NCBI GenBank assembly: GCA_947441435.1
Contig: CANETX010000004.1
Location: forward strand, 1 to 40,870
Length of the DNA stretch: 40,870 bases
From: Planctomycetaceae bacterium
GTDB taxonomy: Bacteria; Planctomycetota; Phycisphaerae; Phycisphaerales; SM1A02
Direction: 5' to 3'
Shown here: positions 26,563 through 32,447 of the stretch, in pieces
Position numbering within the stretch: position 1 is the first letter of the stretch
How the letters are laid out: each line of letters opens with the position of its first letter
Translations under genes and position numbers: made by a program
Notes under the pieces: generated by a model
Databases searched by the model: none
Seen by the model: only the letters and a program-made list of their open reading frames with translations
What the model was told of the DNA's origin: nothing

Positions 26563-28128
26563 GTGACGCGCATAGCAGTCGCCATACCTGTGGTGAGGTC
26601 GGACGGCATCTCGCGGGCGCTCGATCTTGCGCGCGAGGCGAAGGGGCATGGCGCCGATCTTGTTGAATGGCGGCTCGACTCGCTGGTGGAGACCGAGGGA
26701 GGGATTCGCGCGGCGGTGCGGCTCATCGAGGAGAGTCCGCTGCCGTGCATCGTGACGGTGCGCGACGAGTCCGAGGGTGGGGCGTTCGGCGGAGGCCACG
26801 AGACTCGACTCGCTGCGTGGCACGCCTTCGCGTCGGCCTCGCCGCCTCCGGCATACATCGACATCGAACTCGCGGCGATGCACGAAGGGGAGTCGAGTCG
26901 CGCATTTGTCGCGAGCCTGCATCGGGGGAGCGTCGCTCATGAAGGGAGGGCGCGGGCCATCCTGTCGTTCCACGACTTTCGGGGGAGGCCGCCGGGACTT
27001 TCGGGCAAGGTCTCAGAGATCTGGGCCGACCAGTCTGTCGCTGTCGCAAAGGTTGTGTGGACCGCACGGACCGCTCGTGACAACATGGAGGCGTTTGAAC
27101 TGCTCCGGCTCCGGGCGAAGCCGACGATTGCGCTCTGCATGGGCGAGCACGGCCTGATGAGTCGGGTGCTTGCACCCAAGTTCGGCGGGTTCCTGACCTA
27201 TGCGCGGAGCGATGAACACGGGACCGCACCGGGACAGCCGACGCTGCACGAGCTTCTTGAGGACTGGGACTTCCGGACGATCACGCGATCGACGAAGGTG
27301 TACGCGGTCATCGGGTATCCGGTGGCGCACTCGCGCTCGCCGGCGGTGCACAACACATGGTTCCGCAAGGCGAAGTTTGATGGCCGGATGTTCCCCGTCG
27401 CCGTCGCGCCGATGTGGGAAGCGTTCAAGGCGACGCTCGGGGAGTTGATTGCCTGCGAGGGGCTCGATTTTTCGGGGGCCGCGGTCACCGCGCCACACAA
27501 GGTCCATGCGCTCGACTACCTGGCCGAGGTCGGCGGCAAGGTGGACGATGACGCGGCGGCCCTCGGCGCGGTCAACACGATCGTGCGGGGCACGGACGGC
27601 TCGCTGCGCGGGATGAACACCGATGCGGGAGCAATCGTCGAGGTGATCGAAGGCGCGCTCGCGTCGTCGACGAAGAAGCGACTCAAGGGGGCACGGGTGC
27701 TGGTCCTCGGCGCCGGCGGAGCCGCGAGGGCGGCGGTGTACGGGCTTGCGAAGGCGGGGGCGATGGTCTCGATCCTGAATCGCACGCCGAAGCACGCGAA
27801 GCAGCTCGCCAAGGATCTGGCGGGAGACTTGGGGGAGATCGCCGTCGTCTCGCCGGGCCATCTCCCCAAGGAGAAGTTCGATGTCATCGCCAACTGCACG
27901 AGCGTCGGGATGACGGCTGGCCCGGATCCAGAGGGGGATCCGCTTCCCGAGGGAGTCGCGCTTGATGCATCGACGCTCGTGTTCGACGCGGTGTACGCCC
28001 CCGAGGAGACGCCGCTGCTTGCGCGCGCGAAGCGGTGCGGCGCACCGACGCTCGGAGGGGCGGCGATGTTCCTCGCGCAGGCTCGCGCGCAGTTCCGCGC
28101 GTGGACAGGGAGCGCGCCGCTGCCTTGA
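26563..28128 (+). CDS. aroDE: Bifunctional 3-dehydroquinate dehydratase / shikimate 5-dehydrogenase
   Basis: A 521-residue fusion. Residues 1-235 are type I 3-dehydroquinate dehydratase: VEWRLDSL, catalytic H137 (LSFHDF) and Schiff-base K163 (VAKVVWTA). Residues about 245-521 are shikimate dehydrogenase: GYPVAHSRSPAVHN, K313 (VTAPHK), D354 (GMNTDAG) and an NADP-binding VLGAGGAARAAVYGL. Together they catalyse steps 3 and 4 of the shikimate pathway, an arrangement best known from plants and also found in planctomycetes and chlamydiae. All key residues are present. The start is GTG 26563 with TACGCT seven bases before it. aroC follows after 64 bases but has its own promoter box. Confidence 0.95.
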   Translation: MTRIAVAIPVVRSDGISRALDLAREAKGHGADLVEWRLDSLVETEGGIRAAVRLIEESPLPCIVTVRDESEGGAFGGGHETRLAAWHAFASASPPPAYIDIELAAMHEGESSRAFVASLHRGSVAHEGRARAILSFHDFRGRPPGLSGKVSEIWADQSVAVAKVVWTARTARDNMEAFELLRLRAKPTIALCMGEHGLMSRVLAPKFGGFLTYARSDEHGTAPGQPTLHELLEDWDFRTITRSTKVYAVIGYPVAHSRSPAVHNTWFRKAKFDGRMFPVAVAPMWEAFKATLGELIACEGLDFSGAAVTAPHKVHALDYLAEVGGKVDDDAAALGAVNTIVRGTDGSLRGMNTDAGAIVEVIEGALASSTKKRLKGARVLVLGAGGAARAAVYGLAKAGAMVSILNRTPKHAKQLAKDLAGDLGEIAVVSPGHLPKEKFDVIANCTSVGMTAGPDPEGDPLPEGVALDASTLVFDAVYAPEETPLLARAKRCGAPTLGGAAMFLAQARAQFRAWTGSAPLP

Positions 28129-28192: not shown

Positions 28193-29371
28193 GTGGGCGC
28201 GCTGACCTACCGAACTGCCGGCGAATCACACGGACCCGCACTCATCGCACTTATCGAGGGGATGCCCGCGGGTGTCGCCATCGATCAGGCGTGGATCGAC
28301 GCGGAGTTGCGCAGGCGACAGGGGGGCTACGGTCGTGGCGCACGCCAGAAGATCGAACACGACGAAGCGAAGTTCCTCTCGGGCCTTCGCGGCGGTGCGA
28401 CCATCGGATCCCCGATTGCCATTGAGATCGTCAACGCGGACTCGCGCCTCGATGATGCCGTGAAGACGCCGCCCGTGTTTCGGCCGCGGCCCGGTCACGC
28501 CGACCTCGCCGGGAGCCTTAAGTGGCTGACCGAGGATTGCCGCTCGACGCTCGAACGGGCGAGCGCCCGCGAGACCGCGGCGCGGACGGCGGCGGGAGCG
28601 GTCGCCTCATGTCTCCTGCGCGAATTCGGGATCCGCGCGGTCGGATTCGTGCGTGGCGCGCTGGATGCGAACTCGAACATGCAGCCCGCGCATGCGACGC
28701 TCGACGCCTTCGTCGCTGCGCGCGACGCGAGCGAGGTCAATTGCCCCGACGATGCGATCTCGCAGCGGATCGTCGCCCACATCCGTCAGGCGAAGATCGA
28801 CAAGGACACCGTTGGCGGCGTCTGCGAGGTGCATGTCTTCGGTGTGATGCCGGGGCTCGGCTCGTGCGTTAGCTGCGATCAGCGGCTTGATTCCCGCCTC
28901 GCCGCCGCGGTGATGGGCATTCAGGCATTCAAGGCGGTCGAGATTGGCCTTGGCTGCGAGGTTGCGCGGCGTCGCGGCAGCGATGTGCACGACCCAATCC
29001 AATACGACGCCGCACGCGCAGGTGAAGCATGCCTCGGATTCGTCCGCCCCTCCAACAACGCAGGCGGGCTGGAAGGGGGGATGACCAACGGAATGCCGAT
29101 CGTCGTGCGCGGAACGATGAAGCCGATCTCGACGATCCTGAAGGGGATGCCCAGCGTCGACCTTCGATCGCACGAAGCCGTCACCAGCCAGTACGAACGA
29201 TCCGACATCAGCGCGATCGCCGCGGCGAGCGTGGTGATGGAGCATGTCGTCGCGTTCGAAGTGGCACGCGCGCTCGTCGAGAAGTTCGGCGGCGATTCGC
29301 TCGGCGAGCTGAAGGCCAACTGCGCTGGCTACATGGCCGCAGCTCGACGGCTCGGCGCTCCCGCGCGCTGA
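28193..29371 (+). CDS. aroC: Chorismate synthase
   Basis: A 392-residue protein, normal length. It starts VGALTYRTAGESHGPALIALIEG. The FMN/EPSP-binding signatures GGYGRGARQKIEHDEAKFLSG-like, RPGHADLAGSLKW, ERASARETAARTAAGA and SNNAGGLEGGMTNGMPI are visible. It makes chorismate from EPSP with reduced FMN, the last common step to aromatic amino acids. GTG 28193 aligns with the family N-terminus and has TAGGAT seven bases upstream. It follows aroDE, so this locus holds three of the seven shikimate-pathway steps. It ends six bases before the convergent broken gene. Confidence 0.96.
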   Translation: MGALTYRTAGESHGPALIALIEGMPAGVAIDQAWIDAELRRRQGGYGRGARQKIEHDEAKFLSGLRGGATIGSPIAIEIVNADSRLDDAVKTPPVFRPRPGHADLAGSLKWLTEDCRSTLERASARETAARTAAGAVASCLLREFGIRAVGFVRGALDANSNMQPAHATLDAFVAARDASEVNCPDDAISQRIVAHIRQAKIDKDTVGGVCEVHVFGVMPGLGSCVSCDQRLDSRLAAAVMGIQAFKAVEIGLGCEVARRRGSDVHDPIQYDAARAGEACLGFVRPSNNAGGLEGGMTNGMPIVVRGTMKPISTILKGMPSVDLRSHEAVTSQYERSDISAIAAASVVMEHVVAFEVARALVEKFGGDSLGELKANCAGYMAAARRLGAPAR

Positions 29372-29377
29372 GCGGCG

Positions 29378-30439
29378 TTAGGGCAGCAACTTCACCCAAC
29401 CGGCCTTGTCGATGGTCAGGGAGAGTTTCGTTTCCTGCTGCGTGAATCGCAGGGCATCGGCCATCTTCGGGAAGATGCCAGGATCGACGGTGGGCTTGCC
29501 GTCCTTGCCGGGTGCGGCGAGGAACATTCCTGCCATTCCGGCGATGCCATCGAGCGTCTGGTTCCACTGGTCGTTGAATTCGCCAGCGGCGTCCGCGGTC
29601 GCGAAGGCCATCGCTCCGCGGATTGTCGGGTCGGCACCGAGCGTGAGCGAAGCGGAACCCGAGTTGAGCTTGGCCATGGGTTCTTCGAAGCCCGACACGA
29701 AGCTCCCCATCATCCCGGCGTTCTCGGTTGAATCGGTGAACGCGGCACGGACCTCGGGGGTCATGCGGAGTCCGAAGTTGACGGTCGTTGCGGGAAGCCC
29801 CTTGAGCGCCGCATCGAGTTCCATCGCGGTGGCCTCGCTCGCCCCCGCGACTTCGATCGGCCGTGAGTCGGCCTCGGGGAGGATCCGGAACCAGCCGCCA
29901 CCGAGCGAGTGGGCGGCGAGCGACTCGGACGCGTTGCGGCTCACGATCTCGCTGATCTCGGACGCAGAGGGTCGGCCATCCGTCTGTACGAGGGCGACGA
30001 CTCCGTCGGCCCCGGCGAGATCGCCGACGGCCGTCATGTCCCCGATCTGGCTGATGCTCTAGACGACCGCAACGAAACCGAGGATTCCTGCGGTGCGCAT
30101 GGCGCCCATCTGGTCATCGAGCGCCTTCATCGAAGGATCGCTTGCCGGGTCCATGCTCGCGGCACGCAGCGTCAGGAGTCCCGAACCCTGCACGATCTGG
30201 GGGACCTTGCTCTTCGACATCTGCTTCGCGATCGACTCCATCGTCGCGCGGATCGATGCGCTGTCGAGCCCGGTCGTCGAGACGCGCACGACCGCCGCGG
30301 CCTTGGGGCCTACCGCCGCCGTGGGGAGTGCGTCGCTCACCCCGCCGCAGCCTGCGAGAGCCCCCGCGAGCGCGGCGATGGCGAGGACAGGTCGGGCGAG
30401 CCGCAGCGTGTGCCGCACGGAAGTGATGGTGGGGACCAT
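29378..30439 (-). pseudogene. Lipoprotein gene interrupted by an in-frame TAG stop
   Basis: One reading frame of 354 codons runs from ATG 30439 to 29378 with a single internal stop, TAG, at 30059-30061. The first part (126 codons) has a lipoprotein signal with lipobox ALAGC (C31) and AVVRVSTTGLDSASIRATME. It stops in the middle of an apparent domain (ILGFVAVV-stop-SISQIGDMTAVGD). The second part (226 codons) is soluble, has no signal peptide of its own, and continues in the same frame to GWVKLLP. No ribosome binding site is visible before the internal ATG 30037. A CAG-to-TAG or TGG-to-TAG change would explain it; a sequencing error or read-through are alternatives. No known family was recognised. 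TAGCCT lies six bases before the start. Confidence 0.7.
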
Positions 30440-30482: not shown

Positions 30483-32447
30483 ATGTGCGGCATCGCTGGA
30501 TTCGTCGACCCGCGCGCAATGGTGACAGATCCAGAGCGCGCACTCGGGGCGATGTCCCAGTCACTCGCCCATCGCGGCCCTGACGACTCGGGACAGTGGT
30601 GGGATGCCCAGCTGCGTCTCGGGCTCGCGCACCAGCGACTCTCGATCATCGATCCCTCCCCGGCTGGCCACCAGCCGATGACGAGCGCATCCGGGCGCAC
30701 GACGATCATCTTCAACGGCGAGGTCTACAACGCGGGGGACCTGCGCACCGAAGTTGGTCGCACGCGGCGCATCGCCTGGCGCGGCCACAGCGACACCGAA
30801 GTGATGGTCGAGGCGATCGAGCAGTGGGGGATCGTCGAGGCGACGCGGCGGTTCAACGGGATGTTCGCATTCGCGCTGTTTGATAGAGAAGCCCGCACGC
30901 TGGCCCTTGCACGCGACGGCGTCGGCAAGAAGCCCCTCTACTACGGGTGGATCGACGATGTCTTCGCGTTCGCGAGCGAACTCAAGGCGTTCGCGGCGAT
31001 TCCGGGTGGTCGATCGCTCGGTGTCGACCGCGCGGCCGTCGCTGAGTTCTTGCAGTTCAGCTGCATCGGCTCGACGCGGTGCATCCATCCCGGCCTTGCG
31101 AAACTGGCTCCCGGCACCGTCGCGACCCTCGCGCTCTCGGGTCGCATGGAGGCGGGGACGCAGCCGCAAGTGACGGCCTTCTGGAGTGCGCAGGCGTCAA
31201 TCGAGGCCGGTCGCAGCGCGCCGATCGTCGACGACGCGACGGCCGTCGACGAGTTCGGCCGCGTGCTGGAGACGGCCGTGCGCCGCCGCATGATCGCGGA
31301 TGTCCCAATCGGCGCGTTCCTCTCGGGGGGGATCGACAGCGCGCTCATCGTGGCGCTCATGGCCCGGGCGGGTCAGTCGAGGGTCAAGACATTCACGATT
31401 GGCTTCGACGAACCCGACTACGACGAGTCGACTGCGGCAGCCGCCATCGCCAACCGACTCGGCACCGAGCACACCGCGGTGCAGGCCTCGGCGAAATCGG
31501 GACAGGATCTCATCCCGCTTCTTGCGCAGGTGTACGACGAGCCATTCGCCGACAGCAGCCAGATCCCCACGCTCATGGTGAGCGCGCTCGCGCGCACGAA
31601 GGTGCGCGTCGCTCTCTCGGGAGACGGCGCCGACGAACTCCTCGGCGGCTACGACCGATACGCATGGGCACCAATGATCAACCGCACGCTCCGGTTCGTT
31701 CCCTCGCCCGTGCGCGGTTGGCTCGTCGGTGTGCTTCTCGCTTTCGCGAAGGCCGCCGCCGGCGAAATGCACACCGTCGAGTCGCTCTCGCAGCTGCTTC
31801 CGCTGCCTGCGATGAGCCGCCGACGCGACAAGATCGCGCGAGGGATCAGCGTCTTGACCTCCACGAATCCCTTCCAGATGCACTCCGCGCTTGCGAGCAC
31901 AGCGCTTGAGACCGACGAACTGGTGCTGGGTGTCGGCGCGCGGCCACCGATATCACGGGGCGCCCAGAGTCCCGTGGCGATGACCACAGCCGAGTCGTTC
32001 CTGATGGCGCAGGACTTCGTGACCTATCTCGTCGATGACCTGCTCGTGAAGGTCGATCGAGCCTCGATGTCGGTCGGCCTCGAGGTCCGCTCGCCCTATC
32101 TCGACCGCGAGGTCGCTGAGTTTGCGTGGCGCAGGCCGCCATGGATGAAGATCCGTGGCATGGAGCGCAAGTGGCTGTCGTACCGGCTTGCCGAGCGGAT
32201 CATCCCCGGCGGATTCACGCCAACTCCCAAGATGGGATTCGGGGTCCCCGTGCACCACTGGATCCGTGGACCGCTCAGGCCGTGGGCCGAGGACCTGCTC
32301 TCGGCGGACCGCCTGCAGCGTGAAGGGGTGCTCGACGCCGTCAAGGTGCGTGCGCGCTGGGAATCGTTCCTCAGAGGCAGGAACGACGAGCGGCACCTCA
32401 TCTGGGCGCTCCTCATGTTCGAGTCGTGGATGGCGCGGATACGCTGA
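30483..32447 (+). CDS. asnB: Asparagine synthetase B, glutamine-hydrolysing
   Basis: A 654-residue protein with both AsnB domains. The N-terminal glutaminase has C2 as nucleophile after Met removal (MCGIAGFVDPRA), HRGPDDSG, HQRLSIID and FNGEVYN. The C-terminal ATP-pyrophosphatase/synthetase has the PP-loop LSGGIDSALIVALM, LSGDGADELLGGYDRY and VKVDRASMSVGLEVRSPYLD. It makes asparagine from aspartate, ATP and glutamine. Some members of this family act in exopolysaccharide or lasso-peptide clusters, but nothing of that kind adjoins it. The C2 catalytic residue fixes the start. Confidence 0.93.
   Translation: MCGIAGFVDPRAMVTDPERALGAMSQSLAHRGPDDSGQWWDAQLRLGLAHQRLSIIDPSPAGHQPMTSASGRTTIIFNGEVYNAGDLRTEVGRTRRIAWRGHSDTEVMVEAIEQWGIVEATRRFNGMFAFALFDREARTLALARDGVGKKPLYYGWIDDVFAFASELKAFAAIPGGRSLGVDRAAVAEFLQFSCIGSTRCIHPGLAKLAPGTVATLALSGRMEAGTQPQVTAFWSAQASIEAGRSAPIVDDATAVDEFGRVLETAVRRRMIADVPIGAFLSGGIDSALIVALMARAGQSRVKTFTIGFDEPDYDESTAAAAIANRLGTEHTAVQASAKSGQDLIPLLAQVYDEPFADSSQIPTLMVSALARTKVRVALSGDGADELLGGYDRYAWAPMINRTLRFVPSPVRGWLVGVLLAFAKAAAGEMHTVESLSQLLPLPAMSRRRDKIARGISVLTSTNPFQMHSALASTALETDELVLGVGARPPISRGAQSPVAMTTAESFLMAQDFVTYLVDDLLVKVDRASMSVGLEVRSPYLDREVAEFAWRRPPWMKIRGMERKWLSYRLAERIIPGGFTPTPKMGFGVPVHHWIRGPLRPWAEDLLSADRLQREGVLDAVKVRARWESFLRGRNDERHLIWALLMFESWMARIR
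32440..32445 (+). promoter_or_regulatory. -10-like element before the GAF gene (TACGCT, 9 nt before ATG)
   Basis: TACGCT overlaps the last codons of asnB and lies nine bases before ATG 32455. GAGG directly before the ATG could serve as a weak ribosome binding site instead. Confidence 0.35.

Follow-up and report, generated by a model that had tools for sequence, protein, structure and literature searches.

A genus-conserved lipoprotein gene interrupted by a single in-frame TAG in one planctomycete genome

In-frame stop codons within bacterial genes were considered by Belinky et al. 2021 (PMC7918605), a study that required at least two genomes to have the stop at one and the same position. The locus described here resembles those conserved stops in having an in-frame TAG with a dN/dS below 1 on both sides, but differs from them in that its TAG is not common to two or more genomes. 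It should also be compared with the nonsense-interrupted gene, or recent pseudogene allele, with which it shares a lone stop, an otherwise intact syntenic gene and orthologs that are free of stops, although in our case the interruption is known from a single assembly. What we observed is one gene, with a lone stop and no visible decay. The finding is ordinary: it most likely reflects a single inactivating mutation, or else an error of the assembly, and no new reading of the genetic code. The explanation we prefer, at a probability of roughly 0.6, is that the single genome assembled here carries a nonsense allele of recent origin, with the function lost in this strain.

Gene layout, orthologs and synteny

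The window, by which we refer to the whole stretch of DNA that was analyzed, is one entire contig (C4, 40,870 bases) of a genome of 2.06 Mb, which is divided into 192 contigs and is 83% complete. The lipoprotein frame is found on the minus strand, running from 30439 to 29378, and contains 353 codons with a sole internal stop, the TAG at codon 127 (Table 1). The initial annotation, which did not state the strand, described a lipoprotein ORF of 126 codons ending in this TAG and followed by 226 codons without a stop, and our analysis confirmed this description. It also described the 3' part as having neither a signal nor a ribosome binding site of its own. An ATG is found at 30037, 8 codons 3' of the TAG, but inspection by eye indeed showed neither a signal peptide nor a clear ribosome binding site at this point, and the ortholog frames are already open from far upstream of the position that matches this ATG.

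Table 1. Positions of the interrupted lipoprotein gene and of its two neighbors in the window.
Feature	Position	Strand	Description
5' part of lipoprotein gene	30059..30439	-	ATG at 30439, 126 codons with a signal peptide and the lipobox Cys (codon 31), terminated by TAG
In-frame TAG, codon 127	30059..30061	-	GAC or GAT, coding for Asp, in all 15 same-genus orthologs
3' part of same gene	29378..30058	-	226 codons and terminal TAA ending at 29378
asnB (asparagine synthase)	30483..32447	+	Divergent neighbor, also next to the gene in all 15 same-genus orthologs
aroC (chorismate synthase)	28223..29371	+	Convergent neighbor, also next to the gene in all 15 same-genus orthologs

Orthologs were searched for in 61 genomes, the query being the frame translated through the stop, which was entered as X. 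Matches were found in 18 genomes, namely its own, 15 of the 18 other genomes of the same genus and two others from its family, G019 and G023, and all 18 match rows from genomes other than its own are without an internal stop. A family-level search using the alignment, covering 151 genomes, many of which are shared with the 61, gave matches in 16 and added G084, G089 and G114, with G150 as a weak partial match; no internal stop was found in its 17 non-own rows. When both searches are considered, 20 other genomes contain an ortholog and none of these orthologs has a stop inside it. The closest copy, that of G014, is 56% identical, and the read-through frame aligns to this one unbroken ORF at near full length (E 5.7e-111), with an identity of 62% (59/95) over codons 32-126 and of 54% (122/226) after the stop. 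Each ortholog is one frame that aligns to both halves (that of G019 is in two pieces, located at the ends of two contigs), as expected from the initial proposal of a single lipoprotein gene. The situation that contradicts this proposal, orthologs existing as two genes with their own starts, was looked for in the same data and was not seen.

The asnB-lipoprotein-aroC order of the window is also that of 15 of 15 same-genus orthologs (in L013, asnB is cut by the contig end), and aroC adjoins the lipoprotein gene in loci L003-L017, L019 and L087-L089. Three same-genus genomes, G006, G010 and G015, gave no match. In G006 and G010 aroC was not found, while the contig of G015 stops 16 bases past the aroC match, and the locus appears to be uncovered in all three. 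In every same-genus genome in which the locus is visibly covered, the gene is free of stops, except here.

Two further observations were made at these loci. Directly before aroC, at 26563-28128 of the window (plus strand), a type I 3-dehydroquinase domain precedes shikimate dehydrogenase domains within one ORF. In addition, the ortholog on contig L094 is 94% identical to that of L007, and while other close orthologs carry the labels Planctomycetia, Singulisphaera or uncultured bacterium, this contig is filed under a Gemmatimonadota bacterium, which is likely due to a wrong label or to a contig that strayed into the bin.

Constraint on the two halves and the protein family

Both halves present coding characteristics, with a GC3 of 0.853 for codons 32-126 and 0.832 for codons 128-353, and a codon score per codon of 0.247 before the stop (codons 32-126) and 0.271 after it. 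Columns were counted as conserved when 14 or more of 16 orthologs agreed (the incomplete L018 was left out). The window copy retains 12 of 15 such columns before the stop and 36 of 41 after it; in the same test, the corresponding figures for the intact G014 copy are 12 of 15 and 34 of 42. The NG86 dN/dS to G014 is approximately 0.21 before the stop and 0.32 after it, values that are near saturation and should be considered rough. Signs of relaxed constraint or decay were looked for and not seen, with GC3, codon score and conserved columns all being normal. Decay is expected of an old pseudogene, but a young one need not show it; as codon usage and conserved columns are normal in both halves, any lesion is young. 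It should be noted that the constraint values bear on the age of the loss and say nothing on whether a product is still being used.

All rows of a 17-row alignment contain the lipobox Cys31. The four family members tested gave only weak Pfam and NCBIfam hits (LptM, spanin2 and others), none of which reached the curated cut-off, and the family could therefore be given a name. A sequence search of the PDB with the window protein yielded nothing below E 0.1, the best match being RNA polymerase omega (E 0.12 and 0.14). Structure prediction for the read-through protein gave a good model (pLDDT 84.8, pTM 0.80), with codon 127 directly following the strand of residues 119-126 and more strands preceding the second half, and the model of ortholog L007 presents nearly the same order of elements. 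Judging from this order, the cut would fall within one domain.

Foldseek comparison of the window model to the PDB gave 237 matches with an E of 10 or lower and none at 0.001. In VIA-align, the four entries of Treponema pallidum TP0453 (3k8g, 3k8h, 3k8i and 3k8j) took ranks 1-4 both for the read-through window protein (3k8j, Z 6.8, rmsd 5.8 over 205 residues) and for ortholog L007 (3k8i, Z 6.8, rmsd 5.3 over 198), the next row being at 3.7. Both TP0453 and the window protein are lipoproteins, and the fold match, although weak, was repeated for the window protein and L007. However, identity is only 4-7%, Z is under 8 and TP0453 was not found in the PDB sequence search with the window protein. 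The likeness of the models should be taken as a lead only, with common descent or function being at most conceivable (on the T. pallidum outer membrane, see PMC7521688).

Reading of TAG in this genome

The genome encodes RF1 with the PAT and GGQ motifs, taken here in their usual meanings. Its scores are below the NCBI curated cut-offs (351 vs 400 and 342 vs 423), but the two RF1 models are still the best matches. RF2 is also present, in partial form. No CUA anticodon was found in the 34 tRNA hits of this 83% complete genome, all of which were read by ARAGORN, and the PylS model reached 19.7 bits against a cut-off of 178. Genes were called by codon usage in 372,870 bases of the genome (the window and 17 of 20 stretches, approximately 18% of the genome). 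Of the 305 called genes, in which the two halves of the lipoprotein gene are counted as two, 229 end in TGA, 55 in TAG and 21 in TAA; the TAG of the lipoprotein gene is one of the 55, and argS also ends in TAG. With RF1 present, no CUA tRNA among the 34 hits and TAG serving as a normal terminator, global reassignment of TAG was rejected, as the initial annotation had already considered it unlikely, and recoding of TAG at this site is unlikely as well. Structure-stimulated read-through also gave no signal, as the 106 nt starting one codon before the stop fold with a z of 0.18 and 117 of 200 shuffles fold equally well or better. No plasmid copies were found at E 1e-5.

In the same approximately 18% of the genome, 44 stops are flanked in frame by coding-like sequence before and after, and 8 of these, including that of the lipoprotein gene, are TAG. 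Pfam was applied to 10 of the 44 pairs, and 7 of these are two genes, where each side contains its own or a second complete domain. The remaining three pairs may be of either kind: L069 3532 (TAG) has no Pfam hit before the stop and a near-complete FAD domain after it, L067 16328 (TGA) has hits below cut-off before and none after, and L071 3994 (TAG) has no hit on either side; L070 6838 and L059 9733 are further TAGs among the 44, outside the Pfam-checked 10. A stricter first filter was passed by the lipoprotein TAG, the TAA at 837 of the window and L065 4352 (TGA), the latter two having another frame that scores higher just downstream. A second interrupted gene may be present in the genome. 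The mean in-frame score per 25 codons past the terminators is -2.32 for TAG (36 genes), -4.56 for TGA (156) and -3.21 for TAA (15), where the somewhat higher TAG mean includes the lipoprotein stop and some adjacent same-frame genes.

Origin of the stop and alternative explanations

In the alignment of 17 orthologs, the column of the TAG contains Asp in 15 of 15 same-genus sequences, Pro in L018, Gly in L019 and a stop in none. A single-step change of CAG to TAG, given as an example in the initial annotation, does not agree with these data, since TAG differs from both Asp codons (GAC and GAT) at two positions and the same-genus relatives are therefore at least two substitutions away. Accordingly, the codon must either have changed once before or have undergone a double change.

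In the case of a recent nonsense allele, an otherwise intact, genus-conserved lipoprotein gene would have acquired one nonsense codon, and translation would end after 126 residues, leaving an exported lipoprotein stub that is cut inside the folded region. Such a stub would be unable to fold completely, and the other 226 codons would normally be lost. The lesion would be recent, being either a strain-level or a newly fixed loss-of-function allele. We infer that the stop exists in the organism itself, without being confined to the assembly, and that the gene yields no useful product. Counting against a real mutation are the representation of the species by one genome (83% complete, 192 contigs) and the lack of visible decay. 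Moreover, as the gene is found in every same-genus genome in which the locus is visibly covered, its loss is somewhat surprising, and an error or a minor allele thus gains weight.

An assembly or consensus-base error, whereby the gene of the organism is intact and the TAG is found only in the metagenome assembly, is the main rival, which we regard as a tentative and distinctly less probable explanation. It agrees with the single assembled genome, with the stop-free gene in 20 of 20 other genomes containing an ortholog and with the absence of any trace of decay. Nonetheless, given the distance of TAG from the Asp codons, a single wrong base would be insufficient unless the species had already undergone a missense change at this codon, a consideration that weakens this explanation without removing it. 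The frame is, in addition, kept across the whole gene, and no internal stop was found genome-wide in the matched stretches of 35 ABC_tran and 13 Response_reg domain matches, which argues against a generally poor assembly.

A functional stop, where leaky read-through of the UAG yields a little full-length lipoprotein and so lowers its dose, is improbable. Both halves look constrained, and such stops were argued to be widespread in bacterial genes by Belinky et al. 2021 (PMC7918605); however, as opposed to the requirement of that study for at least two genomes, the stop is found at this place in 0 of 17 aligned orthologs and in the one genome of the species, and the lack of a suppressor tRNA among the hits, the presence of RF1 and the absence of a stable RNA fold 3' of the stop count against read-through. 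That the TAG is retained in the lineage, where low-level read-through would adjust how much of this genus-conserved envelope lipoprotein is made, is more doubtful still, and a residue other than Asp would then perhaps be inserted at an otherwise near-invariant Asp.

Termination-reinitiation is known over distances such as that between the TAG and the ATG at 30037. A split gene encoding two cooperating proteins, the second made by reinitiation at this nearby ATG, is nevertheless very unlikely, as no ortholog is split by a stop, as the first product would be exported while the second would be without an export signal, and as the cut is placed between strands of the N-terminal region in the predicted model.

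For annotation, the two ORFs should be considered as one gene model with an internal stop, instead of as two proteins. Returning to the recent nonsense allele, a real and fixed stop would mean that this species can do without an envelope lipoprotein that other members of the genus keep between asnB and aroC.
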